Assembly (NCBI GenBank): GCA_031287525.1
Contig: JAITSU010000057.1
Span: forward strand, 1 to 64,000
Direction: 5' to 3'
DNA length: 64,000 nt
Origin: Zoogloeaceae bacterium
GTDB lineage: Bacteria; Pseudomonadota; Gammaproteobacteria; Burkholderiales; Rhodocyclaceae
The position numbers and the translations under genes are program-made. The notes under the pieces were generated by a model. That model saw only the letters and a program-made list of their open reading frames with translations. It was not told the DNA's origin and searched no databases. Below are positions 27,501 to 43,634 of this stretch, piece after piece. Within the stretch, counting starts at the first letter, position 1; each line of letters starts with the position of its first letter.

Positions 27501-27545
27501 TGGAAGAACGAGGAAATCCTCACACTGGAAAAAGGAGTTTAACCC

Positions 27546-27782
27546 ATGTCCAAAATCGCGATCCGCAATATCGCCCTGTACCTCGACAAGAAGCGCGTCG
27601 ATGTGAAAGTTGGCGAAACCCTGCCCGAAGGCGTCAGCGCCGCTGACTTAAAGCAGCTCGAACGTCTCAACGCCATCGGCGACCCTGAACCGGCATTGGC
27701 AGACGCCAATGTCGTGACCACCGCGCCCGCGCCCGCAGCCCCCAAGGCTGCGCCCAAAACCACCAAAGCCGCCAAGGAGTAA
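27546..27782 (+). CDS. Small phage protein after capsid (Mu gp35-like position)
   Basis: The 78-aa product starts MSKIAIRNIALYLDKKRVDVKVGE. It has the pattern of small head-region proteins of Mu-like phages, with a C-terminal Ala/Pro/Lys-rich tail (APAPAAPKAAPKTTKAAKE). AAAAAGGAG lies 8 nt before the start. Function unknown, perhaps head-tail joining. Confidence 0.65.
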   Translation: MSKIAIRNIALYLDKKRVDVKVGETLPEGVSAADLKQLERLNAIGDPEPALADANVVTTAPAPAAPKAAPKTTKAAKE

Positions 27783-27787
27783 GCATC

Positions 27788-28165: not shown

Positions 28166-28170
28166 CGGGT

Positions 28171-28233
28171 GTAGGGGCGACCTGTGGTCGCCCGCGCCCG
28201 CATCCACGACGGGCGAACACAGTTCGCCCCTAC
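28171..28233. repeat. Palindromic repeat, copy 10 (two units)
   Basis: GTAGGGGCGACCTGTGGTCG at the left and CACAGTTCGCCCCTAC at the right, 63 bp. It lies between the decoration and gp36-like genes. Confidence 0.88.
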
Positions 28234-28264
28234 CTGCCCCCTGAACCCTGACATCTGATCCCTG

Positions 28265-28744
28265 ATGAACTACGCCAACCCCCAAGACCTCATCCTTGCC
28301 TTCGGCGAGCAGGAACTCATCCAGCTCACTGACCGGGATAATGTCCCGCCCGCCGTGGTTGATACCTTTCGGGTGGAAGGGGCGATTGACGCGGCGCAGG
28401 GGGTGGTGGATGGCTACGTCAGCCAGCGTTACGCCCTGCCCATTTCGGGATGCGATGACTGGAGGGGTGGCGCGGAGAAGGTGGCGCCGCCCTTGCTGCG
28501 GCGGCTGACCGTCGACATCGCCCGTTACTATCTGTACGACGATCTGGCGCCGGAGCATGAAGTCTATCGCCGCTATAAATCATCAGAAAAAGACCTGGAA
28601 CGGATTGCCGACGGAAGCCTGTTGTTGTCCTGTCCCCTGGGCGATTCTCCCGGCACGCTGATTGCCGGGCAAGGCGACCTCGAAACCCGTTATTGCTTCT
28701 CGCCACGGCAGGTGACGGATGCTGACCTGAAAGGGTTCGCGTGA
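28265..28744 (+). CDS. DUF1320-type head-tail protein (Mu gp36-like)
   Basis: The 159-aa product has the DUF1320 order: YANPQDLILAFGEQELIQLTDRD, RVEGAIDAAQGVVDGYVSQRYALPI, RRLTVDIARYYLYDD, then EVYRRYKSSEKDLERIADGSLLL and the C-terminal RQVTDADLKGF. These are conserved in Mu gp36 and relatives, placed at the head-tail connection. It starts ATG after a short gap with repeat DNA. Confidence 0.83.
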   Translation: MNYANPQDLILAFGEQELIQLTDRDNVPPAVVDTFRVEGAIDAAQGVVDGYVSQRYALPISGCDDWRGGAEKVAPPLLRRLTVDIARYYLYDDLAPEHEVYRRYKSSEKDLERIADGSLLLSCPLGDSPGTLIAGQGDLETRYCFSPRQVTDADLKGFA

Positions 28745-28759
28745 TGAGCCTGACGCCGA

Positions 28760-28821
28760 GCCGCCTCAAGTCAGGCGAATGCCCCCACGGGGGGCTGTCG
28801 CGGTACGCGACTGGGGGCACA
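28760..28821. repeat. Compact 60-bp repeat element (copy of the split element near 12.1 kb)
   Basis: GCCGCCTCAAGTCAGGCGAA and GCGGTACGCGACTGGGGGCA are both found inverted at 12009-12150, where another repeat separates them. It lies between DUF1320 and the tail terminator gene. Confidence 0.75.
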
Positions 28822-28826
28822 AAATA

Positions 28827-29345
28827 ATGGCGATCCGGCTGCCCGCGCCGCCTCACCCGACACCGCCGTGGAATTTTCTGGCGGCGGAAACCGGCATTGT
28901 CCATCGCTTGAAAGCGCGTCTGCAATCCGGCGCAGCGCCCTGGGCGCGCGAGGTCGCCAGCCGGGATGCGCTCGCCACCGTCGCCGAAGAAATGCAGCAC
29001 TGCCCGGCGGTGTATGTGGTCTATGACGGGTTTACGGTACAGGATGCCGATGAACAGCGGGCGCTGCTCGCTCATCGTTTTCTCACCATTCTCGCCATCG
29101 CCAACGCCACGCAAGGTCGTGACGCCGCGCCAAGAAACCAGAGCGCGGGCGCGCTGCTGCCGGACATCATCGCCGCCCTGCATGGCTTCACCCCGCCCGA
29201 ATGCGCGGGAGGTCTCATCCCCGTGACCGCGCCGCGCCCGTATTACAGCGAGGCGAAATTCGCTTATTTCCCGCTTGCCTGGCAAACCCCGGTGATTCAC
29301 TCCACCCGGCAAGGCCCGGTTTTCGGGCGCCATCCGTCCCATTGA
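28827..29345 (+). CDS. Mu gp37-like tail terminator/DUF1834-type protein
   Basis: The product is 172 aa from MAIRLPAPPHPTPPWNFLAA; the longer frame is read from the repeat just before. It has VAEEMQHCPAVYVVYDGFTVQD, RALLAHRFLTILAIANATQG, GALLPDIIAALHGFTPP and the end AYFPLAWQTPVIH, matching the gp37 family that follows gp36 in Mu-like phages. The family probably caps the tail at the head side. Confidence 0.75.
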   Translation: MAIRLPAPPHPTPPWNFLAAETGIVHRLKARLQSGAAPWAREVASRDALATVAEEMQHCPAVYVVYDGFTVQDADEQRALLAHRFLTILAIANATQGRDAAPRNQSAGALLPDIIAALHGFTPPECAGGLIPVTAPRPYYSEAKFAYFPLAWQTPVIHSTRQGPVFGRHPSH

Positions 29346-29374
29346 TTTTTTCTCACGCGAAAGGAATTTTTACC

Positions 29375-30151
29375 ATGTCCAATGTCACTGTCGAACAATA
29401 CTATTTCGGTCAAGGCCGTCTCTGGAGTCGTCCCTACGGGAGTACCAATCCTGCCGACTGGCGCTGGTGGGGCGACATCTCGCAGCTTGATGTCGCGGGC
29501 GAAACTGAAAACATCGAACACAAGGAAAGCTACTCCGGTCAGCGCAACAAGGTGCGCTCCATCAGCCTGGGCAGTTCCATGACCATTACCGGCACATTGC
29601 ATCAAGTCGATACCCAGGCGCTGGCGGCATTGCTCTACGGCGCGGCCAGCGAAATCGAACCCGCTGTCGTCACTGGCGAGGCGCTCGGCACAGTCAGTGT
29701 CGGCGATTTCATCAAGCTGGATAACCCCGGCGTCAGCGCCCTGGTGATTACCGATTCCGCCACCTCGCCTGTCACCTTCGCCCCGGAAAACTATGTGCTG
29801 GATGCCAATTTCGGCGTCATCGAAATCGTCAGTCTGCCCACGCCCCTGCCGACTTTTCCGCTCAAAGCCGCCTATCAGGCGGCGGGCGGCAAGCAGGTCA
29901 ATTTCTTCACCCAGCCGCAACCCAATCTGGAACTGAAGTACGAAGGCGTCAATCTGGCGGAAAACATGGCGCCCGTGCAGGTGCACTTCTACAAGGTCGC
30001 CACCCAGCCCCTGCAAGGTCTGGCGCTGATCCAGAACGGCAACGAACTGGCGGGCAATCAATTCACGCTGGACGTCCTCTCGGATACCGCCAAACCTGCC
30101 GCCGGCCCGCTGGGTCGCATGGGGCGGTTTATCCAGATCGCAGAAGCGTAA
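29375..30151 (+). CDS. Major tail tube protein
   Basis: The 258-aa product starts MSNVTVEQYYFGQGRLWSRP (start chosen after GAAAGGA). The segments GDISQLDVAGETENIEHKES, RNKVRSISLGSSMTITGTLHQ and the late ENMAPVQVHFYKVATQ fit siphovirus tail tube proteins. It lies at the start of the tail module, before several large tail proteins and the tape measure. The non-contractile tail inference rests on the absence of a sheath gene. Confidence 0.75.
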   Translation: MSNVTVEQYYFGQGRLWSRPYGSTNPADWRWWGDISQLDVAGETENIEHKESYSGQRNKVRSISLGSSMTITGTLHQVDTQALAALLYGAASEIEPAVVTGEALGTVSVGDFIKLDNPGVSALVITDSATSPVTFAPENYVLDANFGVIEIVSLPTPLPTFPLKAAYQAAGGKQVNFFTQPQPNLELKYEGVNLAENMAPVQVHFYKVATQPLQGLALIQNGNELAGNQFTLDVLSDTAKPAAGPLGRMGRFIQIAEA

Positions 30152-30155
30152 TCGG

Positions 30156-30227
30156 GTAGGGGCGAACTGCGTTCGCCCGTCGTGGATGCGTTTGACCAAC
30201 GAACGGGCGAACACAGTTCGCCCCTAC
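30156..30227. repeat. Palindromic repeat, copy 11 (two units)
   Basis: GTAGGGGCGAACTGCGTTCG and the facing GAACACAGTTCGCCCCTAC, 72 bp, between the tail tube and next tail gene. Confidence 0.9.
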
Positions 30228-30246
30228 GGCTGAAAGGAGTTCCCTC

Positions 30247-31086
30247 ATGCCCTATCTCATCGGCTTCGTCGACGATTCAAACGGTCAGAGCGCCCACTAC
30301 AACCTCTTGCAAGTCATCCGTGACTTCGCCGCTCAAAACGGCTGGCAGGTGAATCGCTATGACACCGCGCCAGACAACCGCGAATTGCTGCTGCAAGCCC
30401 CCGGCTACACGGGCGCAGACGCCGTTTATTGCGGGCTTCGCACCTACCAGAGCGTCACCGCCGATTACTACAATCTGGCGGTGATGTGCGCGGCGGGGTT
30501 CGTGGCGGGCAACAGCTTCGACACGCAACCCGGCGCGGTGTTATCCGGCGTGCCCGCGCACAACCAGCGCATCGACTACTGGCTGACCCTGAACCCGCAG
30601 CGCATCGCTGGCGGCATGAAGGTGGGCACGCCGGTGTATGAATCCTTCTACCTCGGCAAATTCTTCCCCTACGCCCGCCCGTCGCAGTACCCGTATCCCG
30701 TGGTCTGCGGCGGCATGTTGTCCGGCACACCCGCCACAAGGTTTTCGGATACGGCACATTCCATGCCGTGGAAAGGGAGCCGCGCCAATCTGCAAATGCG
30801 CTTTGTGGATGGTCTGTTGAAACAAACCGCCACCTACCCGTGGAACAACGTCAATCTCGCGGGCAGCGCGGCGCAACTGCGCGATACGGGCGGCATCTAC
30901 CCGCTCACGCCGGTTGAAATGATGGACGCGAACGGAGTTTACGGATTCCTCGACGGGGTGTTTCACATTCCCGGCTTCAACAATGTGGTGGAAAACACCT
31001 TCACCCTCAATGGCGCGGATTACGTGGTGTTGCAGGACGTGTATCGCACGGGGTTTAACGATTATTTCGCTTTACGACTGGATTGA
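30247..31086 (+). CDS. Phage tail structural protein, unknown
   Basis: The 279-aa product has no signal peptide: MPYLIGFVDDSNGQSAHYNLL, then IRDFAAQNGWQVNRYDTAP, LNPQRIAGGMKVGTPVYESFYLG and the C-terminal GVYGFLDGVFHIPGFNNVVEN. Aromatic and beta-rich composition suggests a virion surface or tail component. AAAGGAG precedes the start. It lies between tail tube and the following tail genes. I cannot name a family. Confidence 0.7.
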   Translation: MPYLIGFVDDSNGQSAHYNLLQVIRDFAAQNGWQVNRYDTAPDNRELLLQAPGYTGADAVYCGLRTYQSVTADYYNLAVMCAAGFVAGNSFDTQPGAVLSGVPAHNQRIDYWLTLNPQRIAGGMKVGTPVYESFYLGKFFPYARPSQYPYPVVCGGMLSGTPATRFSDTAHSMPWKGSRANLQMRFVDGLLKQTATYPWNNVNLAGSAAQLRDTGGIYPLTPVEMMDANGVYGFLDGVFHIPGFNNVVENTFTLNGADYVVLQDVYRTGFNDYFALRLD

Positions 31087-31088
31087 AC

Positions 31089-31111
31089 GGGCGAACACCG
31101 TTCGCCCCTAC
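31089..31111. repeat. Palindromic repeat, copy 12 (half unit)
   Basis: GGGCGAACACCGTTCGCCCCTAC ends directly against the CAGGAG ribosome site of the next gene. Confidence 0.85.
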
Positions 31112-31125
31112 AGGAGAAATTGAAC

Positions 31126-32064
31126 ATGCCATTTATTACCGGACAAGCGGGCAGCCTGCAAGGGCTACTAGACGCGCTCACGACGGCCATCACCGCCCAC
31201 GGCTGGACTGACGCTGGCGGCGGCTGTTATACAAAAGACGGCTGCGCGGTGCGCCTGGAACTTCTCAACATGGGGAGTTTTTACGGGACGACGCAATATC
31301 GGTTTTATGTCATACGGCTTGTCGTGGGCAACGGCGTATCGGGCGGCGCGCTGGTGGATGGCGCGCCAATAGGTCAGTTTATCGGCGAAATGGAACAAAA
31401 TACCGGTTATGGCATTTCGTTTCCCGCCACCTTTTCAATCCACATCAACCAGAATCCTGACGAAGTGTATTTTTTCGTGAATCACAACGTCACATACTGG
31501 CAATGGCTGGCGTTTGGAAGAAGCCCTGTTCCCGGCATACCCGGAACAGGTAATTGGTCGGGCGGCACTCGCGGCGCTCCGGCAAGCGGCGTATATGGCG
31601 CAGGAAAGATTGCCATCTACATCACCCCGACAGGCGGCACTGGCGGCACACACTATACGACCAGCACTGCGCTTTTTTGGGACGGCAACGTAAACACCGA
31701 GGCAGTTACCTCCATTATCCATCATGGCTTATCGGGTGACGGATGGCAGAGCGCCCCTTCCGGCGCCGTCGCCGCCGCGCCGCGAATAGAATACGGGATT
31801 TCAACCTGGAATCAGGGCGCGCCCTTGATTCCGATTCGCGCGCTGCTGGCGCGGGGTGACACCAAGAATTCCATTATCAGTGAACTTCGCCACGCCCGTT
31901 ATCTGCGCCTCGACCATTACGCGCCGGGAGAGGTCATAACGCTCGGACAGGACAAATGGCGCGTCTACCCCTGGTGGAAAAAAAACATAACAGCGCGAAA
32001 CGGCGGAACGAACATCGACCACACCGGCACTTTCGGCGTGGCGCTACGTTACGACGGCGCGTAA
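31126..32064 (+). CDS. Phage tail structural protein, unknown
   Basis: The product is 312 aa from MPFITGQAGSLQGLLDAL, after CAGGAG. Its N-terminus (TAITAHGWTDAGGGCYTKDGC) and beta-rich body (YRFYVIRLVVGNG, FFVNHNVTYWQWLAFG, GKIAIYITPTGGTGG) end with DKWRVYPWWKKN and HTGTFGVALRYDGA. The closing motif resembles those of phage tail-tip associated proteins. It is in the tail operon; no firm family. Confidence 0.7.
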   Translation: MPFITGQAGSLQGLLDALTTAITAHGWTDAGGGCYTKDGCAVRLELLNMGSFYGTTQYRFYVIRLVVGNGVSGGALVDGAPIGQFIGEMEQNTGYGISFPATFSIHINQNPDEVYFFVNHNVTYWQWLAFGRSPVPGIPGTGNWSGGTRGAPASGVYGAGKIAIYITPTGGTGGTHYTTSTALFWDGNVNTEAVTSIIHHGLSGDGWQSAPSGAVAAAPRIEYGISTWNQGAPLIPIRALLARGDTKNSIISELRHARYLRLDHYAPGEVITLGQDKWRVYPWWKKNITARNGGTNIDHTGTFGVALRYDGA

Positions 32065-32067
32065 GCC

Positions 32068-33771
32068 ATGAGCGTCATCGAAGCCTTCCTCGTCGCCACC
32101 TGCCTGCCCCCCGGCGTGAATGGCAATCTCGCGCCGGATTTGGACAAATTCAGCGGCATCACCGGCTGGCCGGGGACGGAAGACCTGGGCGCGGCGGGCG
32201 GCTACATGCCCATGACGGCGCATTTTCCGGTTGAGGCGAACGGTAAAACCATCGCCGCATGGCGGGGCGGGTGCTACTTTGACGATTACTATCACCGCAT
32301 TCACATCACGCCCGCGTCGATCGACGTGGGCAACATCGCCGCCGAGCAGAAAATCGACCTCTCCATCTGGAACAGCGCTTTGACCCCGCAGACGCTCACC
32401 GCCGTGACCGGGCTGGATGATGACATCACGGTCACGACGCCCTTCGCGCTGCCCTTTGCGATGCCTGCCTTGCGGGAAGACTTGCATCAACTGAACCTGT
32501 CGCCGTCCGGTCCCTCGACCATTGACCTTGAGATTCACTTTGTTTTTACCGGCCTCCCCGACGCCATTGTCGCCATTGTCGGCAATCGCATCGTCGCGTT
32601 TCCGTGGCCGGTGAATTGGGTTGAACCTGTGCGCGAGAATTTCCAGTGGACAACCGACATCCTCACCTCGGAGACCGGCGCGGAGCAGCGACGCGCTTTG
32701 CGGATTTCGCCCCGCGTCCGCCTGTCCGGCGCGGCGCTGGTGGCGGAAGAGGAACGCGCGAATCTCGACCTCGCGCTTTCCAACTGGGCGGCGAATGTCT
32801 GGTGCGTCCCGTTCTGGCCGGACATTCAAACCCTCGCCGCCGACGCGCCGAAAGGCTCAACCTTCATTTCCTGCGTGACAGCGGGTTATGATTTTGCCGT
32901 TGGTTCACTCGCGCTCCTGATTGGCGAATCGCCTTTCGACAACGAAGCGGTCGAAGTGACCGCCATCGCCGCGCATGGCATCGAAATCAAACGCCCGACC
33001 GGATTTGACTGGCGGGCGGGCACGCGCCTTTTTCCCGCGCGGCAGGCAAGGCTCATGACCCTGCCGGAAGTCACCCGTGAGACCGATACCGTCGATACCC
33101 TCGCCGTCGAATTTCAGCTCACCGAAACCCGCGACCGGACGGGCAAGCTGCCCACGCCGACTTATCGCGGGCTGCCGCTCTTTCTCGACCGTCCGAACGA
33201 AGCCGACAAACTCACGCGCGCGCAAGAGCGGCTCATCATCACGCTGGATAACGAGGTCGGCAAAGTAGCGGTCATCGACACCGCCCGCCGCGCTTTCCAG
33301 ACGCTGCAACACAGTTTTCTGCTCGCCGGCCGCGCCGCGCTGCAAGACTTTCTCGACTTTGTTTATGGCTTGAACGGCAAACAAAAAGCGATCTGGGTGC
33401 CCACCCACGCCGCCGATCTGACGCTCATCGAACCGGCAAGCGCCAATGCGCTGGCGGTAAAACGTGTGGGCTATCCCCGCTTCGGTCTGGGTACGCCGGG
33501 GCGGCAGGACATTCTGATTCAGATGCACGACGGGAGCGTCCTGACCCGCCGCGTCACCGCCGCCGTCAGCGACGGCAATGTGGAACGCCTGGCCGTCGAT
33601 ACGCCTTTCCCTGCCGCGATTTTGCCGTCGCAGGTGGCGCGCATCAGCTATCTCATCTGCGCGCGGCTGGCGTCGGACGAAATCGAAGTGGAACACCTGA
33701 CCGACAACCACGGCGTCGCCCGCGCCAGCCTCACATGGCGGGCGGTGCGGGATGATCTGGAATCGACATGA
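32068..33771 (+). CDS. Putative tail tip / distal tail protein
   Basis: The 567-aa product has no signal peptide. The N-terminal part has FPVEANGKTIAAWRGGCYFDD. The middle has PWPVNWVEPVRENFQWTTDI, RRALRISPRVRLSGAALVAE and NVWCVPFWPDI. The C-terminal part has FLLAGRAALQDFLDFVYGLNGKQKAIWVP and HDGSVLTRRVTAAVSDGN. These resemble large tail-tip proteins placed just before the DUF2163/BR0599-type gene in transposable siphoviruses. It follows the preceding gene by 3 nt. Confidence 0.7.
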   Translation: MSVIEAFLVATCLPPGVNGNLAPDLDKFSGITGWPGTEDLGAAGGYMPMTAHFPVEANGKTIAAWRGGCYFDDYYHRIHITPASIDVGNIAAEQKIDLSIWNSALTPQTLTAVTGLDDDITVTTPFALPFAMPALREDLHQLNLSPSGPSTIDLEIHFVFTGLPDAIVAIVGNRIVAFPWPVNWVEPVRENFQWTTDILTSETGAEQRRALRISPRVRLSGAALVAEEERANLDLALSNWAANVWCVPFWPDIQTLAADAPKGSTFISCVTAGYDFAVGSLALLIGESPFDNEAVEVTAIAAHGIEIKRPTGFDWRAGTRLFPARQARLMTLPEVTRETDTVDTLAVEFQLTETRDRTGKLPTPTYRGLPLFLDRPNEADKLTRAQERLIITLDNEVGKVAVIDTARRAFQTLQHSFLLAGRAALQDFLDFVYGLNGKQKAIWVPTHAADLTLIEPASANALAVKRVGYPRFGLGTPGRQDILIQMHDGSVLTRRVTAAVSDGNVERLAVDTPFPAAILPSQVARISYLICARLASDEIEVEHLTDNHGVARASLTWRAVRDDLEST

Positions 33772-33775
33772 ACCC

Positions 33776-33803
33776 GTAGGGGCGGTTCGTGAACCGCCCC
33801 TGC
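33776..33803. repeat. Palindromic repeat, copy 13
   Basis: GTAGGGGCGGTTCG / TGAACCGCCCCTGC, a 28-bp near-perfect palindrome like copy 3. Confidence 0.9.
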
Positions 33804-33822
33804 ATCAACAGGAAACCCGACC

Positions 33823-34650
33823 ATGCCATTCAATGAGATAGAAATTTCAATATCCTCCGCCCGCCCGTACCGCCTCTACCTCTTCGAGCGCGGCGGCGAG
33901 CGATGGGCATACACCAATGCCGATCGCGATGTCACCTATCAAAACATCGCTTACAAAGCGCTGCCCATTTCCGATGATGGCATCCGCGCCACGGGCGAAG
34001 TCTCCGCCGACCAGATGACGGTGACGGCTCCCGCCGACCTTGATGTAGCGATGATGTTTCGCGCCGCCGCGCCTTCCGACGACATTTGGCTGACCCTGCG
34101 CGATTCGAGCTACGGCTTGCCCGACGCCGCCGATTCCGCCGCCGTGGTTTGGGTGGGCAGTGTCCGCGCCGTGCGCTGGTCGGAACCGGGCAAATCGGAA
34201 CTCTGCTGCAATTCCATTTCCGCCAGCATGGGGCAAACGGGTCTGCGTCTCTCCTTTGAGCGGTCTTGCCCGCACTGCCTCTACGACGGGCAATGCCGTG
34301 TCTCCGCCGCGCTGTACAAGGTGACGCGCAACATCATCGACATGAACGGACAAAGCATTGTCGTCTCCGGCATCGACAGCACGCCGATTTACGCGGGGGG
34401 GATTGTGCAGTGGCAATCCGGCATCGCGACCGAGCGGCGCGCCATCGAAGCCCAAGGCGGCAACACCCTGGCGATTCTGGGCGGCACCTACGGCATGAAA
34501 ACCGGCATGAGTGTGGCGCTCTACCCTGGATGCGACCAGACCCGCGAAACGTGCGACAGCCGTTTCAACAACATCGAAAACTTTGGCGGCTTCGCCCACA
34601 TGCCGGGCAAGTCGCCGTTCGACGGCGACGCCATTTATTCGGGGAGTTAA
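33823..34650 (+). CDS. DUF2163 / BR0599-type tail assembly protein
   Basis: The 275-aa product has the N-terminal DUF2163 pattern (RPYRLYLFERGGERWAYTN, ADQMTVTAPADLDVAMMFRA, WVGSVRAVRWSEPGKSEL). A cysteine-bearing region follows (FERSCPHCLYDGQC). The hallmark C-terminus is YPGCDQTRETCDSRFNNIEN then FGGFAHMPGKSPF. The conserved Cys residues are like those of lambda gpL-type tail tip proteins that bind a metal cluster. It is in the tail-tip gene order before the hub protein. Confidence 0.85.
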   Translation: MPFNEIEISISSARPYRLYLFERGGERWAYTNADRDVTYQNIAYKALPISDDGIRATGEVSADQMTVTAPADLDVAMMFRAAAPSDDIWLTLRDSSYGLPDAADSAAVVWVGSVRAVRWSEPGKSELCCNSISASMGQTGLRLSFERSCPHCLYDGQCRVSAALYKVTRNIIDMNGQSIVVSGIDSTPIYAGGIVQWQSGIATERRAIEAQGGNTLAILGGTYGMKTGMSVALYPGCDQTRETCDSRFNNIENFGGFAHMPGKSPFDGDAIYSGS

Positions 34651-34652
34651 GC

Positions 34653-34880
34653 ATGTGGTTCCAACTCTTCATGCTGGTTGTCTCGCTGGTGATCAGCGCC
34701 GTGACCGCGCCCAAAGCGGCGACCCCCAAACCCGCCAGCCTGTCGGACTTCGATTTTCCGCAATCGACCGAAGGCACCGCCGAAGCCGTGGTGTTTGGCG
34801 ACGTGTGGATTGAGGACTGGTTTGTGACCGGCGTCGGAAATTTCCGCAAGTTCGACGTCAAGACCAAGGGGGGTAAATGA
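34653..34880 (+). CDS. Small membrane-anchored tail-module protein
   Basis: The 75-aa product has an N-terminal hydrophobic helix (MWFQLFMLVVSLVISAVTA), then SLSDFDFPQSTEGTAEAVVFGDVWIEDWFV. Genes like this precede the hub/fibre gene in related phages. It overlaps the next gene by 4 bp. The role may be an assembly or injection component; not proven. Confidence 0.68.
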   Translation: MWFQLFMLVVSLVISAVTAPKAATPKPASLSDFDFPQSTEGTAEAVVFGDVWIEDWFVTGVGNFRKFDVKTKGGK

Positions 34881-35089
34881 AAATCACCCCCTCCGACCTG
34901 CACGAAGCGCCGCTGTTCGGCAAACGCGGCTGGTGCGCGAAAGGTTGCCGCGCGTGGGCGGCGGCGCATCACCTCGACTGGTCAGCCTTCGTGCGCGATG
35001 GCATTGACGAGGCTGAACTCCTCGCCACCGGCGACCCGATGGCGGCGGCGCTGGTGGATTGGAAAAAATCACAACAGGATGAATCATAA
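34877..35089 (+). CDS. Small tail-module protein
   Basis: The 70-aa product, MKITPSDLHEAPLFGKRGWCAK, has a conserved-looking GCRAWAAAHHLDWSAFVRDGIDEAELLATGD segment typical of small proteins in transposable siphovirus tail-tip modules. It overlaps both neighbours by 1-4 bp. Function unknown. Confidence 0.68.
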   Translation: MKITPSDLHEAPLFGKRGWCAKGCRAWAAAHHLDWSAFVRDGIDEAELLATGDPMAAALVDWKKSQQDES

Positions 35090-37272
35090 TGGGCAGCAAA
35101 AAAGTCAAAATCGGCTACGTCTACTATATGGGGCTACACATGACCCTGTGTCGCGGCCCCGTGGATGAGCTACGTACCATCATGGTGGGCGACAAGGAAG
35201 CCTGGACGGGCAGCGCCACCGGCAACGTGGAATTCAAGATCAACAAGCCCGACCTGTTCGGCGGCGAAAAGAAAGAAGGCGGCATCGCGGGCACGCTCGC
35301 CGTGCTGATGGGCGACGCCACGCAAGCCGTGCACGAACGCCTCGCCCGGATGTTGGGCGGACTTGTCCCCGCTTTTCGCGGCGTGACTTCAGTCTTTTAC
35401 GACGGCGAGCTTTGCGCCCTGACCGTTTATCCCAAAAAGTGGGCGTTCCGTGTCCGCCGCACGGTGAAGGGATGGCAGGGCGGCGCGGCATGGTATCCCG
35501 ACAAATGCGCCATCTGGCTGAATGGTTACGACATCAAGGCGATGAATCCCGCGCACATCCTCTACCAGATTTACACCGACGCCACCATTTCGCGCGGGCT
35601 TCCCCCCGCGCGCCTTGATGACGCCTCATTTCGCCGCGCCGCCGACCAGCTCTACGCCGAAGGATTCGGGCTGTGTTTGAAATGGTCGCGGCAAGACGGC
35701 ATCGACCGCTTCGCGCAAATGGTCATTGACCACATTGGCGCGGTGGTCTATACCAGCCGCAACACGGGTTTGCTGACCCTGAAACTCATTCGCGGCGATT
35801 ACACGATAGATACCGTTCCCGCCTTCGATCCCGACCACGGGCTACTCGGCATCGACGAAGACGAAACCACGGCGGTCTCTGAATCGGTGAATGAAATCAT
35901 CGTCAAATACACCGACCCCGCTGACGGTAAAAGCCGCTCCACCCGCATCAAAAACAACGCCGCCATCATGACGTCCGGCAGCGTGGTGTCGCAAAGCAAA
36001 GATTACCCCGGTATCCCCACCGAATCACTGGCGCAGCGCGTTGCCCTGCGCGACCTGAAAGCGTCGGCGGGCGGGTTGCGAAAGCTGAAAATCCGCCTGA
36101 ATCGTCTGGGCGCCGGCCTTGTCCCCGGCGATGTCTTCAAAATCGCCGCGCCCTCGCGCCATATAGAATCCCTCATCCTGCGCGCCGGACGCTGCGAATA
36201 CGGCGAGGGCACCGACGGCACCGTCACCATCACCGCCGTACAGGATGTCTTCGGGCTGCCGGGCACAAGCTGGTCAGGCATTGAAACTCCCGGCTACATC
36301 CCGCCCGATGTTACGCCGCGCCCCGCCCCGCAACAAATCCTGCAAGAAGCCCCGTTCAGGTCGCTGGTGCAGATCATGGGCAATGCCGACGCCCGCCTGA
36401 TGGATCCGACATTCGGCTACCTCACCGCGCTGGCGGAATCCCCCACGCCCCTGTCGGGCGGTTTTCAGATCTGGTCAAAGGTCGGCGCGCAAGCCTACAC
36501 GTGCGCGAATGAAGAAGAGGGCAACTTCTCTCCCGTGGCCATGCTGGCAAACGACCTCGGCATGACCACCACAGCCGTGACCTTCACTGACGGGAAAGCC
36601 CTTGAATTCGTGGAAACCGGCGGCGCGGCGCTGATCGACCATGAAATCGTCCGCGTCGATTTTATCGACATCACGGCGGGCGTCATGACCATTGCGCGCG
36701 GCTGTTGCGATACCGTCCCCGCCCCGCACGCTTCCGGCGCCACCATTTGGTTCACCGAAGACACCGGCGGCGCGGACGAAACCGAATACATCAGCGGCGC
36801 CACGGTCAACGTCAAACTGCTCACCACCGCGCCGGGCGGCATTCTCGACCTCGCCGCCGCCCAGGAGGGCGCGCTCACCATCACGGGCCGCGCCGGAAAA
36901 CCCTACCCGCCGGGCAATTTCAAAATCAACGGTCTCACGTATCCCGCCACCATTCCCAATCCGCCCCTGCTCCTGACCATCAGCTGGTCGCACCGCGACC
37001 GCCTGACCGAATCGGATTTGCTCATCGATACCACGCAAGGCAACATCGGCCCGGAAGACGGCACCACGTACCGGCTCCGCCTCTACGGTCAAGACGGCGC
37101 CCTGAAAAAAACCGTCACCGGCATCACCGATACAAGCTACCAATGGATGTCAGAAGGCGCGGACAGCGGTCTAGGCATCGGCAACGTCAACCGCCAGGTG
37201 CGCGTCGTGCTGGACAGCGCGCGGGATGGCATTTACAGCCATCAGGCGCATGACTGGACAGTTTTCAGATAA
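35089..37272 (+). CDS. Tail tip hub / central fibre protein (gpJ-like)
   Basis: The 727-aa product lies at the usual place of the J-type hub. N-terminal features are KVKIGYVYYMGLHMTLCRGPVDELRTIMVGDKEAW-like sequence, LARMLGGLVPAFRGVTSVFYD and WYPDKCAIWLNGYDIKAMNPAHILYQIYTD. The middle has SVNEIIVKYTDPADGKS. The C-terminal region includes a fibronectin-like part (LLLTISWSHRDRLTESDLL ... TYRLRLYGQDG). It should form the tail tip that opens on adsorption. It shares no repeat-derived insertion. Confidence 0.82.
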   Translation: MGSKKVKIGYVYYMGLHMTLCRGPVDELRTIMVGDKEAWTGSATGNVEFKINKPDLFGGEKKEGGIAGTLAVLMGDATQAVHERLARMLGGLVPAFRGVTSVFYDGELCALTVYPKKWAFRVRRTVKGWQGGAAWYPDKCAIWLNGYDIKAMNPAHILYQIYTDATISRGLPPARLDDASFRRAADQLYAEGFGLCLKWSRQDGIDRFAQMVIDHIGAVVYTSRNTGLLTLKLIRGDYTIDTVPAFDPDHGLLGIDEDETTAVSESVNEIIVKYTDPADGKSRSTRIKNNAAIMTSGSVVSQSKDYPGIPTESLAQRVALRDLKASAGGLRKLKIRLNRLGAGLVPGDVFKIAAPSRHIESLILRAGRCEYGEGTDGTVTITAVQDVFGLPGTSWSGIETPGYIPPDVTPRPAPQQILQEAPFRSLVQIMGNADARLMDPTFGYLTALAESPTPLSGGFQIWSKVGAQAYTCANEEEGNFSPVAMLANDLGMTTTAVTFTDGKALEFVETGGAALIDHEIVRVDFIDITAGVMTIARGCCDTVPAPHASGATIWFTEDTGGADETEYISGATVNVKLLTTAPGGILDLAAAQEGALTITGRAGKPYPPGNFKINGLTYPATIPNPPLLLTISWSHRDRLTESDLLIDTTQGNIGPEDGTTYRLRLYGQDGALKKTVTGITDTSYQWMSEGADSGLGIGNVNRQVRVVLDSARDGIYSHQAHDWTVFR

Positions 37273-37292
37273 ACCAAAACCCTTTATTTATC
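37268..37292 (+). promoter_or_regulatory. Late-operon motif C (upstream of tail chaperone)
   Basis: GATAAACCAAAACCC-TTTATTTATC followed by TCTGCGCC, overlapping the stop of the hub gene. Same motif as A and B, in the same direction relative to the following genes. Confidence 0.55.
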
Positions 37293-37369
37293 TCTGCGCC
37301 CTGTCAAGCCGGAAGATTGCCGCTGTACGCTTATCCCATTTCCGCCGCTCAACCACCGGACATTTTCCA

Positions 37370-37906
37370 ATGGCAAAACACATCTCTCCTTCTGACCATC
37401 CCGTCATCCGCACCAAGGCCAAAATGCCCAAACCCGCCCAGGGCAATGACCTCGACACCCTGTTTCCAGAACGCGATATTGAGGTCGCGGGCGAAACCAT
37501 CACCATGCGCGAACTCACTTTTGGCGAACAGTTGAAACACGGTCAGGCGCTCGCCACCCTCGCCGAAGCCCTGCGCCCCGTCCTGCTCGCGCCCGCCGCA
37601 TCCGGGACTGAACCCGACCCCTTGACCCTCATCCTCGACGTTCTCGCCCGGCACAACGACATCGCCATCAAGCTCGCCGCGCTCTGCTGCGACCGCCCCC
37701 GCGAATGGCTGGAAAACCTTTCCGGCAGGGAAGGCGAAGATGTGCTCATCCTCTGGTGGGGGGTGAACAGCCCTTTTTTTCTGCGACGGCTGATTGTCCG
37801 ACCGGGGCAAATCAAAGCCGAAATCGCCCGACAAAAGCTAAACCAATTGGCTGGGGGCAAGTCTTCGCCACCCTCATTCGCCACGGACACCAGCGAGGCG
37901 AGTTGA
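37370..37906 (+). CDS. Tail assembly chaperone-like protein
   Basis: The product is 178 aa from MAKHISPSDHPVIRTKAKM; a longer frame overlaps the hub gene and is unlikely. It has RDIEVAGETITMRELTFGEQLKHGQAL, ILDVLARHNDIAIKLAALCCDRPREWLENL and WWGVNSPFFLRRL. It lies two genes before the tape measure, the place of tail assembly chaperones. The next small ORF begins inside its stop codon (TGATG), recalling the two-frame chaperone pairs of siphophages, though no slippery sequence is obvious. Confidence 0.75.
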   Translation: MAKHISPSDHPVIRTKAKMPKPAQGNDLDTLFPERDIEVAGETITMRELTFGEQLKHGQALATLAEALRPVLLAPAASGTEPDPLTLILDVLARHNDIAIKLAALCCDRPREWLENLSGREGEDVLILWWGVNSPFFLRRLIVRPGQIKAEIARQKLNQLAGGKSSPPSFATDTSEAS

Positions 37907-38058
37907 TGCGCTACACCGCTCGCCAGATCGCCCTGTTTTTCCGCGAAGCCATCCGCGCCGAAAACGAACAACAAGCCCGCGCCATCTGCGCTGCCAATCT
38001 GGGATTTTCGGGCGGCAAGGAAACAAAAAACGCCATCAACGAACTGCTGGGAGAATAA
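37906..38058 (+). CDS. Small tail ORF before tape measure
   Basis: The 50-aa product MRYTARQIALFFREAIRAEN ends INELLGE. It starts in the overlap TGATG with the previous gene and stops 3 nt before the tape measure gene. It may be the second component of the tail assembly chaperone pair. Not otherwise recognisable. Confidence 0.65.
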   Translation: MRYTARQIALFFREAIRAENEQQARAICAANLGFSGGKETKNAINELLGE

Positions 38059-38061
38059 ACG

Positions 38062-41000
38062 ATGGCGGGCGGAAGCAATCTCAATCTCGCGCTCAAAATT
38101 GAAGCCGACATCAAGCAGGCGCAAGCGGCGTTGTCGGGCATTCAGCAGCAAGTCGGCAGTGTCGCCGGAAACGCCAAAAGCGCAGGCGGCGCGGCAAGTG
38201 GCGCGGCGGGCGGATTCAACCAACTCGGCGCTGCCGCTGGCGGCGCGGCGGATGAGCTTGGCAAAGTCTCGCAATCCGCATCCGGCATCAAGGGCGCGCT
38301 GGGTAACGCCACCGCCGCCCTGAAAGGCTTTGTCGGCGCGTTTGTCGGCATAGGGGCCATCAAGGGCTTCATTGCGCTGGCGGATGAATACGGTCAGATG
38401 TCCAGCCGTATCAAAATGGCGACCCGTAGCGCCGAGGAATACGAGCAGGTGCAGATGCGCCTGCTGGATACCGCCAACAATACCTACCGCCCGCTCTCCG
38501 AGGTACAGGAAGCCTACATCCGCACCGCCGACGCGCTGCGCTCAATGAGTTACAACACCCATCAGGCAATGGATGTTTCCGATTCCCTGTCCTATCTTTT
38601 TGTCACCAACGCCGCCAGCGCCGACCGCGCGTCGTCCGCCATCGACGCCTTCGGCAAGTCCCTGCAAACCGGCGAAGTACACGCCATGCAATGGCAAACC
38701 CTGCTCGCCGCCGTGCCTTCGCTGGTGCAGGACATCGCCACCGCCAGTGGCAAATCGGCAGAGGAAATCAGAAAGCTGGGCGCGGAAGGCAAGCTCTCCG
38801 TCGCGCAACTCACCGAAGGCTTGCGCCAGTCCGCCGAGAAAAACAAACAACTGGCGGCGGACATGCCGGTCACGGTCGCGGATGCTTTCACCAAGCTCCG
38901 TAACAGTCTCGAAGCCTTTTTTGGCGAGGTCAATTCCGGCACGGGTCTGACGCAAATTCTGGTCAGCGCGCTGGAAGGCGTAGGCTCTGCCGTCGACTGG
39001 CTCACCGAAAATCTGGAGACCGCCGCGATTCATTTTGAAGGCTGGGGCGAGGACATCCGCCGTCTGCCGGAATCCGTAGCGTTTATGGTCGACGGGATTT
39101 CAAACGAAATGGACGGCTTGCTCGCCCTCATCGGCAGCGATTCCAGCGACATCCGCGACTTTCTGATGGGTGCGTTCAGGGAATGGCCGGAGAATGTCCG
39201 CCAGTTCATCCAGATCATCACCGTCGAAATCGCCGCTTTCGTCGACAAGTGTCGGGCATTCGGTGTCGACATCGCCAATTTCCTGAATCCGGTCAGCGCG
39301 ATCAAGGAAAGCTTCTCGGTGATGAACAAGGCGGTCAAGGGCGAACTCAAGACCGGCGACGCGCTTGTCGCCGAATTCGAGCGCATCAATGGCGTCCGCC
39401 GCGATTCCCTGCAAGCCATCGCCGATGAGCGCGTCGCTACGGAACAGAACGTCGAAGCGAAGAAAAAGGAAATCGCCGCCAAACGTGAGGCGATGAGGGC
39501 GGAAATTGAGCGCCAGCGGCAGGCAAAAGTCAATCTCAAAACGCCTACGAGCAAGACCGGCGGCAAAGCCAAGGCTGATCCTGTCGCGCAGGCATTGGCG
39601 CAGCAGGAACAGTCGCTCACCGTCGCGCTTGCCGAAGCGCATCAAAAACTGGCGAACGCCAAAAACGGTGTCGCCGATGCTGAAAACCGCGCCACTAGCC
39701 GTCTTGAAATCTGGCTCTCCACCAACAAGGCGGCGCAAGGCCTGACGGGAAGCCAGATTGCCGGGTTACGCAATCAAGCTGCTGCTGTCGACGCCGCCAC
39801 CAAAGCCTACACCGACCTCGCCGAAGCCAAAGCCCGCGCCGAACGGATCAAGAGCGGCATGGAAGACATCAACATCACCCTGCTCGAATCTCAGGGCAAC
39901 AACTTTGCAGCCTCAAAACGCCGCATTGAAAAGCAATACCGTGCCTTGGTCAAAGACCTGAACGACAGCGGCGACACGGTGAATCTCGATATCGTGACCC
40001 AAGTCAAGGATTACGAAGTCGCCAAAGCCAGATTGGATGACGTGCTCGCCAAAATCGACGCGATTCAGGCGGCTCAAAGCAGGGGCGAACAGTCGCTCTC
40101 TACGGCATCCGAAACCGGCTTACTGACCGAAGTCGAAGGCCGCGAACGTCTGCTGGACATTCATCGTCAGACCTACGCAGAGCTGCAAAAAATCCGCCCT
40201 GAACTCGAATACTTGGCGCGGCAACCCGACATCGTCGGTCAGCAAGCCGCCGTCGCGTTGCAACAACTCACCGATCAGGAAAAGAAGCTGCAAGCGACGA
40301 CGACGCTTTTCGCCAGTACCTTGAAAAACGGTCTGACATCTGGCTTGCAGCAAGCCATCAGCGGTCTTGCCGACGGCACGATGTCGCTGCGTGACGCCAT
40401 TCACGCGCTTGCCACCGAAATTGCTCAGTCGCTCTTGAAAATGTACGCCGACAACGCCGTGCAATTCTTCATGAAGCCTGACGGCCCGCTGGGGGACTTT
40501 TTCAAAATGGGCGATTCCGGCGCGGGCGGGGCGGGGGGATTGCTCGGCGCGCTGTTTGGTAACGGAACACAAGGCGCGGCGGCGGCAACCACGACTGCCA
40601 ATACGGCATCGGTCACGGCAAACACGGCGGCGATCACCACTCTGACGGCACAACTTGCCACTTCCGGTCTGACCGACGTGGCAGCGAACGTCGCAAACGA
40701 TGCCGTGGAAGGCGTCAGCCAAGCGGCAGAAACCGCCAACAACGCTGCCCTGATGACTTCCGCCACCAGCTTGACGGCGGCGGGTACGATGTTGCTGACC
40801 TCTGCTACGGCGCTACAAGCGGCAGCCGCCGCAATCAGCGCCAGTGCTGCTGGTGGCGGCATGAGCGCGCTGGGCAGTTTGGGGAGCGGAATCGTCGGGA
40901 GCTTGTTTGCCACGGGTGGCTATACCGGCGCGGGCGGGAAATACCAGCCCGCCGGTATCGTCCATGCGGGTGAATTTGTCGCGCGGCAAGAAGTTGTACG

Positions 41001-41319
41001 CCAACCCGGCGCGTTGTCTTTTTTGTCGGCGTTCAACCGGAACGGTATGCAGGCTATCGAAGCCTGGATAGGCAAAGGATATGCCGACGGCGGCCCGGTC
41101 ACTCCCATTTCCATCCCATACACCCGCCTCAGCGCGACAAACATTCAACCCGTTTCGGTATCAGGGGGCAATACCTCGGTAGACAACAAGATTGCCCTCA
41201 ACCTGTTCGATGATCCGTCACGCATGGCTGACGTCATCAGTTCCCCGCAGGGCGAAAAAGCCTTCACCGTCCTGCTCTCAAGAAACCCGCAAAAATTCCG
41301 CCAGATTTTGGGCGTATAG
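38062..41319 (+). CDS. Tape measure protein
   Basis: The 1085-aa product is the longest in the phage. Its N-terminal ~300 residues carry the tape-measure domain (LADEYGQMSSRIKMATRSAEEY, SSAIDAFGKSLQTGEVHAMQWQ, SGKSAEEIRKLGAEGKLSVAQ). Long coiled coils follow (AKREAMRAEIERQRQAKVN, QEKKLQATTTLFAST). An Ala/Gly-rich hydrophobic region is at 830-970. The C-terminal motif GIVHAGEFVARQEVVRQPGA is common at the end of such proteins. It fixes tail length and forms part of the DNA channel. The predicted tail is about 160 nm if the usual 1.5 angstrom per residue holds. Confidence 0.9.
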   Translation: MAGGSNLNLALKIEADIKQAQAALSGIQQQVGSVAGNAKSAGGAASGAAGGFNQLGAAAGGAADELGKVSQSASGIKGALGNATAALKGFVGAFVGIGAIKGFIALADEYGQMSSRIKMATRSAEEYEQVQMRLLDTANNTYRPLSEVQEAYIRTADALRSMSYNTHQAMDVSDSLSYLFVTNAASADRASSAIDAFGKSLQTGEVHAMQWQTLLAAVPSLVQDIATASGKSAEEIRKLGAEGKLSVAQLTEGLRQSAEKNKQLAADMPVTVADAFTKLRNSLEAFFGEVNSGTGLTQILVSALEGVGSAVDWLTENLETAAIHFEGWGEDIRRLPESVAFMVDGISNEMDGLLALIGSDSSDIRDFLMGAFREWPENVRQFIQIITVEIAAFVDKCRAFGVDIANFLNPVSAIKESFSVMNKAVKGELKTGDALVAEFERINGVRRDSLQAIADERVATEQNVEAKKKEIAAKREAMRAEIERQRQAKVNLKTPTSKTGGKAKADPVAQALAQQEQSLTVALAEAHQKLANAKNGVADAENRATSRLEIWLSTNKAAQGLTGSQIAGLRNQAAAVDAATKAYTDLAEAKARAERIKSGMEDINITLLESQGNNFAASKRRIEKQYRALVKDLNDSGDTVNLDIVTQVKDYEVAKARLDDVLAKIDAIQAAQSRGEQSLSTASETGLLTEVEGRERLLDIHRQTYAELQKIRPELEYLARQPDIVGQQAAVALQQLTDQEKKLQATTTLFASTLKNGLTSGLQQAISGLADGTMSLRDAIHALATEIAQSLLKMYADNAVQFFMKPDGPLGDFFKMGDSGAGGAGGLLGALFGNGTQGAAAATTTANTASVTANTAAITTLTAQLATSGLTDVAANVANDAVEGVSQAAETANNAALMTSATSLTAAGTMLLTSATALQAAAAAISASAAGGGMSALGSLGSGIVGSLFATGGYTGAGGKYQPAGIVHAGEFVARQEVVRQPGALSFLSAFNRNGMQAIEAWIGKGYADGGPVTPISIPYTRLSATNIQPVSVSGGNTSVDNKIALNLFDDPSRMADVISSPQGEKAFTVLLSRNPQKFRQILGV

Positions 41320-41471
41320 GAGACAAAAAAGACGGGCGACCGACCCGGATGTTAGCGCATCCACGCCGATCCCCAACAAGCTGAAGCAACCAGCAAGTCA
41401 GGCAAGGCCCGCCGCCGTCATGACAGCGCGCCAAGCCTATCAGATTTTCTGACAAGAAAAAGGCTTGCTTT

Positions 41472-41708
41472 ATGGAAAATATCCGTTGCGGACAATGCAA
41501 CCGCAAACTGGCGGAAGCCGAATACATCCGCCTTGCAATCAAGTGTCCCCGTTGCGGGACTGTTAACCAGATGAAGGCCACTGAGCCTCCTACCCGCGCG
41601 GCAAGACCGCCCGATACGGAGGTTCACAATGGCAAACCCGAAACAGCCGCTCGGCAAGAACGGCTTCAAGTATCAGGAACGCTACGGCGTCATCATCCTG
41701 TGCGATGA
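41472..41708 (+). CDS. com: Com-like zinc-finger translational regulator
   Basis: The 78-aa product opens MENIRCGQCNRKLAEAEYIR ... IKCPRCGTVNQM. The four cysteines C6, C9, C25 and C28 form the zinc finger of Mu Com, which activates translation of mom by opening its mRNA. The first 36 residues align well with Mu Com; the rest is variable. It lies at the right end of the phage just before the Mom-like gene, as in Mu, but a 50-codon ORF overlaps its 3' end. There is no mutation in the zinc ligands. Confidence 0.88.
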   Translation: MENIRCGQCNRKLAEAEYIRLAIKCPRCGTVNQMKATEPPTRAARPPDTEVHNGKPETAARQERLQVSGTLRRHHPVR

Positions 41709-41781
41709 CGAAAAGGCACAGCAAACGCTCTTTAACAAACTGAAGGCGGAAGGCTACAAGCTCCGTGTGGTGACCGTATGA
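41629..41781 (+). CDS. Small protein between com and mom-like genes
   Basis: The 50-aa product is MANPKQPLGKNGFKYQERYG, VIILCDDEKAQQTLFNKLKA, EGYKLRVVTV. A GGAGG lies 7 nt before its start and the stop overlaps the ATG of the next gene (ATGA). It is in a different frame from com, overlapping it by 80 bp. The beta-alpha-beta pattern suggests a small ferredoxin-like fold. The good ribosome site and coupling support a real gene; its function is not known. It could take part in the translational control that Com exerts. Confidence 0.72.
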   Translation: MANPKQPLGKNGFKYQERYGVIILCDDEKAQQTLFNKLKAEGYKLRVVTV

Positions 41782-42902
41782 AGCTCGCCATCCGCCACCA
41801 TTGCGCTGATTACGACAGCTACCGCGCGGCGCGTGTCAAATCGCTCTTCAACGTGGAGTCCGGCGCGGACTTCGCGTTGGATGTCGAACTCCCGATTGAG
41901 GATAGCGACTGGACAATCGGCGTCGTCGTCGGCCCGTCCGGTAGCGGTAAAAGCAGCATCGGAAAATCATTGGGCAAACCCTACGCCCCAATGTGGTCGT
42001 GTGATCAACCCATCATCGACGCCATTTCCCCGGCGGGCGACTTCAACGTCGTCACCGCCGCGCTGTCAGCAGTTGGTCTGGGCAGTGTTCCCACCTGGTT
42101 GCGCCCTTTTTCCGCGCTCTCCAACGGCGAACGCTTCCGTGCTACCTTGGCGCGTCTGGTTTGCGAAGCGCCGGAGTTCGCCGTGGTTGATGAGTTTTCA
42201 AGCGTCGTCGACCGGCAAATCGCCAGAATCGGCGCGGGCGCATTCGCCAAAGCGTGGCGGCGTACCGGCGGCAAAGCCGTGTTGCTCTCCTGCCATTACG
42301 ACATTCTGGATTGGTTGGAGCCGGACTGGATTTTCGACACCGCCAGCGGACAATTTGAACGGGGGCGTCTTCGACGGCGACCCAGGCTGGAAATGTCTGT
42401 CTACGCGACAAACTGGCATTATTGGTCACTGTTTGAGCCGCATCACTATCTGAAGCTGCCGCGCATGATCGCCGCCACCTGCTACGTCGCCGCCATTGAT
42501 GGCAACCCCGTCGCCCACCTCGCCGTCAGTACCCGCCCCGGTCTCATTGAAGCCCGCGCCTGTCGTTTGGTGGTGATGCCCGAATGGCAAGGCGCGGGCG
42601 TCGGAATGCGCTTCCTGAACACGGTGTGCGATCTCTGGCAACGGGGCGAAAACCGCTACGGCAAACCCATGCCCACCCTGTTTCACACTTCGCATCCCGG
42701 TCTCGCCGCCGCCCTGCGTCGGGATAAAAAATGGACGCAGGTTTCCGCGCGGCTTTACGGCGATCACAAAGGTCGCTGCAAGCAATCCATCGCCGCCAGC
42801 CTGACCAGGGCAGGGAAGGAAGCGTCCGGCGCATCGGGCTACGGCGGGCACTTTCGCGCTGTGCAGGGTTTCCGCTATCTGGGGGAGCCATGCGTATCGT
42901 AA
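41778..42902 (+). CDS. ABC-type ATPase fused to a Mom-like GNAT acyltransferase (predicted DNA modification enzyme)
   Basis: The 374-aa product has two domains. Residues 1-200 form a full ABC ATPase: Walker A GPSGSGKS (52-59), signature LSNGE (114-118), Walker B FAVVDE (134-139) and switch His 173 (LLSCHYDI). No membrane segment is present, so it is not a transporter. Residues ~205-370 form a GNAT-type domain with NWHYWSLFEPHHYLKLP, MPEWQGAGVGMRFLN (acyl-CoA loop QGAGVG 271-276) and HTSHPGLAAALRRDKKW, like Mu Mom. Mom modifies adenine in phage DNA to evade restriction. The ATPase could supply energy to prepare base or cofactor. It sits between com and a formyltransferase gene, overlapping the latter by 13 bp. 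Confidence 0.85.
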   Translation: MKLAIRHHCADYDSYRAARVKSLFNVESGADFALDVELPIEDSDWTIGVVVGPSGSGKSSIGKSLGKPYAPMWSCDQPIIDAISPAGDFNVVTAALSAVGLGSVPTWLRPFSALSNGERFRATLARLVCEAPEFAVVDEFSSVVDRQIARIGAGAFAKAWRRTGGKAVLLSCHYDILDWLEPDWIFDTASGQFERGRLRRRPRLEMSVYATNWHYWSLFEPHHYLKLPRMIAATCYVAAIDGNPVAHLAVSTRPGLIEARACRLVVMPEWQGAGVGMRFLNTVCDLWQRGENRYGKPMPTLFHTSHPGLAAALRRDKKWTQVSARLYGDHKGRCKQSIAASLTRAGKEASGASGYGGHFRAVQGFRYLGEPCVS

Positions 42903-43501
42903 TCGTCGGACAGAAATGGCTGGGCGCGGAAGTCCTGCGGCTCTGCCTGAAGCGCGGCGACGACATCGCCAATGTGCTTGCGCCCGGAGCGGACGGCGAA
43001 GAATACGACCGCCTGTATGCCGCCGCGCAACAGTCAGATGTCCCGGTCGAAACCTGCGAAAGGCGGGTAGAAGCCAGCCACATCCCGCCCCAAACAGACC
43101 TCATCATCGCCGCCCACGCCCATGCCTATATTTCAGAAGCGGCGCGGCAAGCCGCCCGCTACGGCGCATTGGGCTACCACCCCTCGCTACTCCCACGACA
43201 CCGGGGACGCGACGCCGTGCGCTGGACACTCCACATGCGCGACCCCATCGCAGGCGGCACAGTGTATTGGATGGACAACGGAGCCGACACCGGCAACATC
43301 GCCGCCCAACACTGGTGCCACGTCCGCCCCACCGACACCGCCCGAACCCTATGGCAACGCGACCTCGCCCCCATCGGTCTGCGCCTCATAGAACAGACAC
43401 TCTCCGATCTGGACAAAGGCATCCTCACCTCCATCCCTCAAACCGAGGAATGCGCCACCTGGGAACCCGCCTTCACCCCCTCCCGCCTGTCCAGCGCATG
43501 A
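42890..43501 (+). CDS. Formyltransferase-family protein of the modification cassette
   Basis: The 203-aa product has the N-terminal Rossmann strand MRIVIVGQKWLGAEVL and the catalytic region LIIAAHAHAY ... GALGYHPSLLPRHRGRDAV ... WMDNGADTGNI, as in GAR and Met-tRNA formyltransferases. His 97 and Asp 133 are kept, but the position of the usual catalytic Asn (N-x-H) is Gly 95. It lacks the C-terminal tRNA-binding domain of Fmt. The start overlaps the end of the Mom-like gene, so they work together; a formyl (one-carbon) group may be part of the DNA modification. A terminator follows immediately. Confidence 0.85.
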   Translation: MRIVIVGQKWLGAEVLRLCLKRGDDIANVLAPGADGEEYDRLYAAAQQSDVPVETCERRVEASHIPPQTDLIIAAHAHAYISEAARQAARYGALGYHPSLLPRHRGRDAVRWTLHMRDPIAGGTVYWMDNGADTGNIAAQHWCHVRPTDTARTLWQRDLAPIGLRLIEQTLSDLDKGILTSIPQTEECATWEPAFTPSRLSSA

Positions 43502-43509
43502 ACAAAAAT

Positions 43510-43534
43510 AATCCGCCCCAACAGGCGGATTTTT
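43510..43534 (+). terminator. Terminator at the end of the phage late transcript
   Basis: An 8-bp stem AATCCGCC-ccaaca-GGCGGATT followed by TTTC, 9 nt after the formyltransferase stop. Confidence 0.8.
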
Positions 43535-43535
43535 C

Positions 43536-43634
43536 AAATTCTTTTCTTGTGGTTAATTTTATTTCCCATAGCTAAATACTGTCACACCTCATTTATCTCG
43601 CTCACACCACCGGATTTAGCGCGCGCGGCGTTAA
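43536..43634. other. Right prophage end, noncoding
   Basis: No gene. Read inward from the boundary it contains GAGCGAGATAAATG, the partner of the left-end motif. Its last 50 bp also encode the 16 foreign residues at the end of the truncated Cas9. Confidence 0.65.

Follow-up and report, generated by a model that had tools for sequence, protein, structure and literature searches.

A Com-preceded cassette of an ABC ATPase–acyltransferase fusion and a formyltransferase at the end of a Mu-like prophage, with a predicted role in DNA acylation

Gene layout and prophage context

The window analysed here is a stretch of 64,000 nucleotides from a Zoogloeaceae bacterium (contig JAITSU010000057.1 of assembly GCA_031287525.1, positions 1 to 64,000 of the forward strand). 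It holds, as the final genes of a Mu-like prophage, a cassette encoding the regulator Com, a 50-aa protein (orf50), an ABC ATPase fused to a GNAT acyltransferase, and a formyltransferase-family protein (FT), whose positions and profile matches are given in Table 1. All four genes overlap their neighbours: orf50 starts within com and shares 80 nt with it, its end overlaps the fusion gene in an ATGA, and FT starts 13 nt ahead of the end of the fusion gene. A preliminary description of this DNA had claimed a Com protein with four cysteines, a coupled 50-aa ORF between com and the fusion, a formyltransferase gene after the fusion and overlaps throughout. Each of these claims was borne out, the cysteines being present as CxxC...CxxC and the small ORF overlapping both its neighbours.

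Table 1. Positions of the cassette genes, RNA elements and prophage in the window
Feature	Position	Strand	Description
com	41472..41708	+	78-aa four-Cys zinc-ribbon translational regulator; Pfam PF10122 E 9e-15, PHROG 6417 E 6e-19
orf50, 50-aa protein	41629..41781	+	PHROG 28816 E 2e-18
ABC ATPase (residues 1 to ~195) :: GNAT acyltransferase (~206-374)	41778..42902	+	PHROG 11143 E 6e-159
FT, formyltransferase-family, 203 aa	42890..43501	+	FDH (ALDH1L1) N-domain-like; PF00551 Formyl_trans_N E 3e-20
Mu-like prophage, approximate extent	2684..43632		Ends taken from the split cas9; uncertain by a few nt
Com-type RNA hairpin 1, AGGCCACTGAGCCT	41575..41588	+	Fits the stem and C-N2-3-GA loop of the mapped Mu Com site
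Com-type RNA hairpin 2, GCGG-CAAGA-CCGC	41598..41610	+	4-bp stem, strong covariation
Translation-inhibition stem	41577..41633	+	UGAGCCUCC (41582-41590) pairs with GGAGGUUCA (41618-41626), Shine-Dalgarno hidden

The remainder of the prophage, assigned by reading the ORFs, includes a transposase (18380-20134), a MuB-like ATPase, head genes, siphovirus-like tail genes and a tape measure gene (38062-41319). The element splits a type II-C cas9 gene into two pieces on the minus strand (2350-2683 and 43633-46707); a 1041-aa ORF ends in ...LPNRAIV plus read-through, and the C-terminal piece (QGKDEEEWTLIDESFDW...) lies 41 kb away beside cas1. Both junctions share AACAATC, and two relatives (L210 and L211) cross the insertion point uninterrupted. 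Beside cas2/cas1 lies a CRISPR array (6-966) of 15 repeats of 36 nt and 14 spacers of 30 nt; no match of these spacers to the rest of the window was found with up to 6 mismatches.

The Com RNA site

In phage Mu, Com binds a short hairpin beside an inhibition stem in which the start of mom is concealed, and its site has been mapped experimentally to a stem of 3-4 bp with a six-residue loop and the core CC-N2-3-GAG (PMC6483171). The window combines both features by which such a regulator is recognised, a four-Cys PF10122 zinc ribbon and recognition hairpins upstream of the controlled start. The inhibition stem also contains a GGCC pairing that spans the AUG; its minimum free energy was -29.3 kcal/mol (z -3.4), and 1 of 200 shuffled sequences was equally stable. 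Hairpin 1 shares its 3' half with this stem, where that half is paired with the Shine-Dalgarno sequence of orf50; Com binding and the hiding of this sequence are therefore mutually exclusive folds.

The second hairpin was paired in 98.8% of 252 cells, with 50 double-sided changes compared with 10.4 in shuffles, and this signal was lost when the pairing partner was slid. A Com-type hairpin was detected in 56 of 63 distinct cassettes with Com, against 2.3 expected from dinucleotide shuffles, and in 5 of 36 cassettes lacking Com. Loci with Com were more structured at the start than those lacking it, with a p value of 6e-8 that is only indicative, because a rule was used to place the starts and the sequences share ancestry. 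No Rfam family was found for the hairpin.

The likeness to Mu com-mom thus includes the zinc ribbon, the Com-binding hairpin, the stem that hides the Shine-Dalgarno sequence, a first modification gene that begins inside com, the right-end location in a Mu-like genome and an enzyme of acyltransferase fold. An identical overlap of 80 nt in Mu and in the window was considered as a further likeness and dropped, as the annotated start of Mu mom differs from the GUG start within the inhibition stem (PMC6483171). The two systems differ in that Mom belongs to another GNAT family, without ATPase or formyltransferase, and in that the product of the Mu system is known.

Ten Com phages outside the cassette family (Mu, B3, TJ1, AP3, KS5, UMP151, Smp131, JD024, Chuche and DVM-2008) were also inspected. 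In nine of them, the annotation of the gene after Com is DNA methylase or Mom; in the other, this gene is hypothetical. Com-type hairpins, mostly two in tandem, precede the DNA methylase or Mom genes of AP3, KS5, UMP151, Smp131, JD024 and B3 (L219-L223, L175), which suggests that Com is a controller that can be exchanged between modification genes. In UMP151 and JD024, com is unannotated.

Protein families and conservation of the cassette

The ABC half of the fusion carries a Walker A motif (GPSGSGKS, residues 52-59), a signature (LSNGE, 114-118), a Walker B motif (AVVDE), a D-loop and an H-switch (His173), which vary little or not at all among 90 relatives, and the earlier claim of a complete set of ATPase motifs stood. 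The C-terminal half is a GNAT domain with a QGAGVG acyl-CoA motif (Pfam Acetyltransf_1/7). The whole protein, modelled by AlphaFold2 with a pLDDT of 88.7, matches ABC and GNAT Pfam models, and the function label of its PHROG is 'unknown'. Foldseek, queried with the full-length fusion, gave ABC ATPases alone and did not help to place the GNAT, and PADLOC gave only a generic ABC hit.

A system of ABC ATPase plus GNAT has been predicted to acyl-modify DNA by Iyer, Zhang, Burroughs and Aravind (2013), with phage pT24 cited, according to the passage on it in PMC7824862. The window protein couples an ABC ATPase with intact motifs to a GNAT and has a relative in pT24 (tblastn E 4e-33, 36.7% identity); by sequence it is a member of this class, with its predicted role in DNA acyl-modification. 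The formyltransferase, Com and the ParB-tail protein are features of the window that this passage does not mention.

In contrast, the description of the GNAT as Mom-like had to be abandoned, since homology to Mom was tested in four ways and rejected. None of 81 ABC::GNAT proteins matched the Pfam Mom family PF25680, for which the control, Mu Mom, gave E 2e-75; the window fusion did not match PHROG 1384; and profile-profile comparison by HHalign, in which the Mom alignment used was shallow, gave a probability of 0.4%. A weak and generic GNAT similarity (E 0.04) linked the domain to the RNA cytidine acetyltransferases TmcA/NAT10, which resemble the window protein in outline, as an ATPase fused to a GNAT that acylates a base amine, but act on RNA and have a helicase-type ATPase.

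Matches to the fusion were found by tblastn in 59 phage records, and 304 relatives were confirmed in a scan of bacterial genomes and at least 578 in viral contigs. A comparison set of 174 loci was assembled from 160 loci of the bacterial and viral scans, 13 phage loci and the window. Where the flanks permitted, orf50 was directly upstream of the fusion in 148 of 160 loci (with the 4-nt overlap in 134 of the 148), FT was downstream in 112 of 145, and Com was upstream in 77 of 160. The hosts include Pseudomonadota, Bacteroidota, Planctomycetota and Verrucomicrobiota, and the cassette is also present in Gordonia phages. A gene order that turns up in well over 100 loci of different phyla is far from what chance would give.

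Next to more distant fusions (about 25-40% identity) there is no FT, and a ParB-like gene often precedes them. The fusions of the FT-linked clade share extra invariant C-terminal motifs, FHTSHPxL and GYGGHFRAVQGF (window 42681-42704 and 42837-42872), which are absent or poorly aligned in the distant FT-less ones and may be a docking or DNA-contact element.

The orf50 family matches residues 166-201 of the ParB-like gp1 of Gordonia phage Axumite. Since this ParB-like gene closes with a stretch that belongs to the orf50 family, orf50 appears to be what remains of such a partner, its C-terminal tail. A relative of orf50 in a Porphyromonas phage (BK068090; L002:5876-6004) carries the label 'acr candidate'; its location and family suggest a modification-partner protein instead.

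With regard to FT, the closest profile match among solved proteins was the N domain of 10-formyl-THF dehydrogenase (FDH; E 3e-42), followed by Met-tRNA formyltransferase (FMT; 1e-30), and the top five Foldseek hits were all FDH N domains (AF2 pLDDT 95.2). In a small tree, FDH grouped with the phage FTs and not with the host paralogues; support was moderate, and some branches were very long. FT has Gly95-Tyr-His97 where amine formylators have Asn-x-His, and Asp133 is retained. Among its relatives, the catalytic Asn was absent in 129 of 129 (Gly in 103, Ile in 14), the His was retained in all 129 and the Asp in 130 of 130, whereas the host's own three PF00551 proteins all have NIH where the window protein has GYH. 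FMT, ArnA and GART need the Asn; FDH has Ile104 at this position, and an Ile104Asn mutant keeps less than 10% of the activity (PMC4388273, PMC8748788). FT thus lacks the Asn-x-His...Asp signature of amine N-formyltransferases (FMT, GART, ArnA) and shows that of the FDH type: the His/Asp pair, a residue other than Asn at position 104 and the best similarity to FDH.

The likeness to the FDH (ALDH1L1) N domain extends to the fold and the HPSLLPRHRG motif. It does not extend to the whole enzyme, as the phage protein is a single domain that ends at about 200 aa, without the C-terminal subdomain, the carrier or the aldehyde dehydrogenase domain, and its key site is more often Gly than Ile. The gp3 of Axumite (L003:1805-2452), labelled 'tRNA-methyltransferase', is a member of the cassette FT family. 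No formyltransferase in phage DNA modification was found in the literature searched.

Predicted modification of phage DNA

Because the next gene in nine of the ten other Com phages is a DNA methylase or Mom, the cassette occupies a DNA-modification slot, and by this analogy it probably modifies the phage's own DNA. The initial proposal of a DNA hypermodification cassette is therefore kept in part: Com control with its conserved hairpin and inhibition stem, the right end of a Mu-like prophage and the expert prediction for the class support it well, and its argument from kinship with Mom (0 of 81) falls away. The modified adenine made by Mom, N6-carbamoylmethyladenine, blocks restriction.

In the mechanism that we propose, this late operon would acylate bases of the phage's own DNA, probably as protection from restriction and further defences that target DNA. 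Com, translated from the mRNA of this operon, would bind the hairpin upstream of orf50 and free the ribosome site otherwise paired with the 3' half of that hairpin, so that the modification genes could be translated. The putative ParB-like partner tail and the ABC ATPase would engage the DNA and act on it, and the GNAT fused to the ATPase would use an acyl-CoA to acylate an exocyclic amine of a base. FT would move a formyl group from 10-formyl-tetrahydrofolate to the pantetheine thiol of CoA, a reaction done by, or proposed for, its relatives FDH and HypX, and where FT is present, the acyl group delivered would be formyl. The ABC-ATPase/GNAT prediction and the Com switch are already known in outline; what is new is that the fusion is linked to a thiol-type FT and a ParB-tail protein, with a Com RNA switch upstream. 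Taken as the best single account, Com-switched DNA acylation fed by formyl-CoA has, in our estimate, a probability of roughly 0.45.

The formyl-CoA step is predicted because the Asn is missing in every one of the 129 relatives and the closest domain, that of FDH/ALDH1L1, formylates the thiol of phosphopantetheine. In FDH the formyl acceptor is a thiol, mercaptoethanol in vitro and 4'-phosphopantetheine in the whole enzyme (PMC4388273, PMC8748788). HypX shares the His/Asp formyl-transfer site and a proposed CoA acceptor, with formation of formyl-CoA (PMC6802093), but it is proposed to break formyl-CoA to CO and is not the nearest relative of FT by sequence. As a GNAT that uses CoA is encoded next door, formyl-CoA is an economical guess, and the loading of formyl onto CoA for the GNAT is put forward tentatively. 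The fully specified route, in which formyl-CoA made from 10-formyl-THF feeds an ATP-driven, Com-switched, late formylation of exocyclic amines to N6-formyladenine or N4-formylcytosine, is less likely than not. N-formylated base amines are hydrolytically labile. To our knowledge, folate-fed, CoA-linked DNA formylation is known in no organism, and we know of no GNAT that uses formyl-CoA. A chemistry different from that of Mu, as suggested earlier, remains a prediction, made plausible and sharper by an FT of the thiol-accepting FDH type instead of a standard amine formylator.

FT is missing from 33 of the 145 cassettes with room for it (six of these being distant members never linked to FT), including L022, a close relative of the window, and mapping it onto the tree of the fusion protein takes 13 or more gain or loss events. 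Therefore, the GNAT must work without FT or with another donor, or FT tailors or supports the reaction. A donor switch marked by loss of FT was tested on this tree and rejected, as the losses are scattered instead of forming one clade.

In a tailoring role, FT would not make the donor and would formylate the amine of an aminoacyl-type group that the GNAT had put on the base. An optional finishing enzyme could well be absent so often while the GNAT is retained, and most members of the family with known function formylate amines; however, the Asn that amine formylators require is the very residue lost throughout the FT relatives (PMC4388273), and no gene for an aminoacyl donor is linked within the window, which leaves this role improbable. 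Still less probable is a GNAT that modifies DNA with acetyl-CoA or some other common acyl-CoA, FT being a 10-formyl-THF hydrolase that tunes the folate pool in infection. The FDH N domain can indeed hydrolyse 10-formyl-THF in vitro (PMC4388273), the GNAT motif is a generic acyl-CoA site and FT comes and goes among cassettes, but FT is bound to one gene pair, usually overlapping, across unrelated phages, as a general folate enzyme need not be, and at locus L143 it persists despite two genes between it and the fusion. That the cassette acts not on DNA but on RNA, such as tRNA, or on protein, such as host polymerase, is equally doubtful: GNATs often modify proteins, some phage GNATs modify RNA polymerase according to the passage in PMC7824862, and the weak TmcA/NAT10 likeness points to RNA, but Com control in a slot shared with DNA methylases and Mom, the ParB-like partner genes and the late right-end location, as in Mu, argue for DNA.

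If Com-switched, formyl-CoA-fed DNA acylation is correct, the cassette would add a chemically new class to the known DNA modifications, found in phages and prophages that number in the hundreds and span many phyla, and formyl-CoA would gain a role as acyl donor. The Com RNA switch would extend beyond Mu as a plug-in controller of different DNA-modification genes.

In phage Jace, the gene after the fusion (gp87; L005:6879-7304) is annotated as an aspartate decarboxylase, which, if real, could provide a different acyl group.
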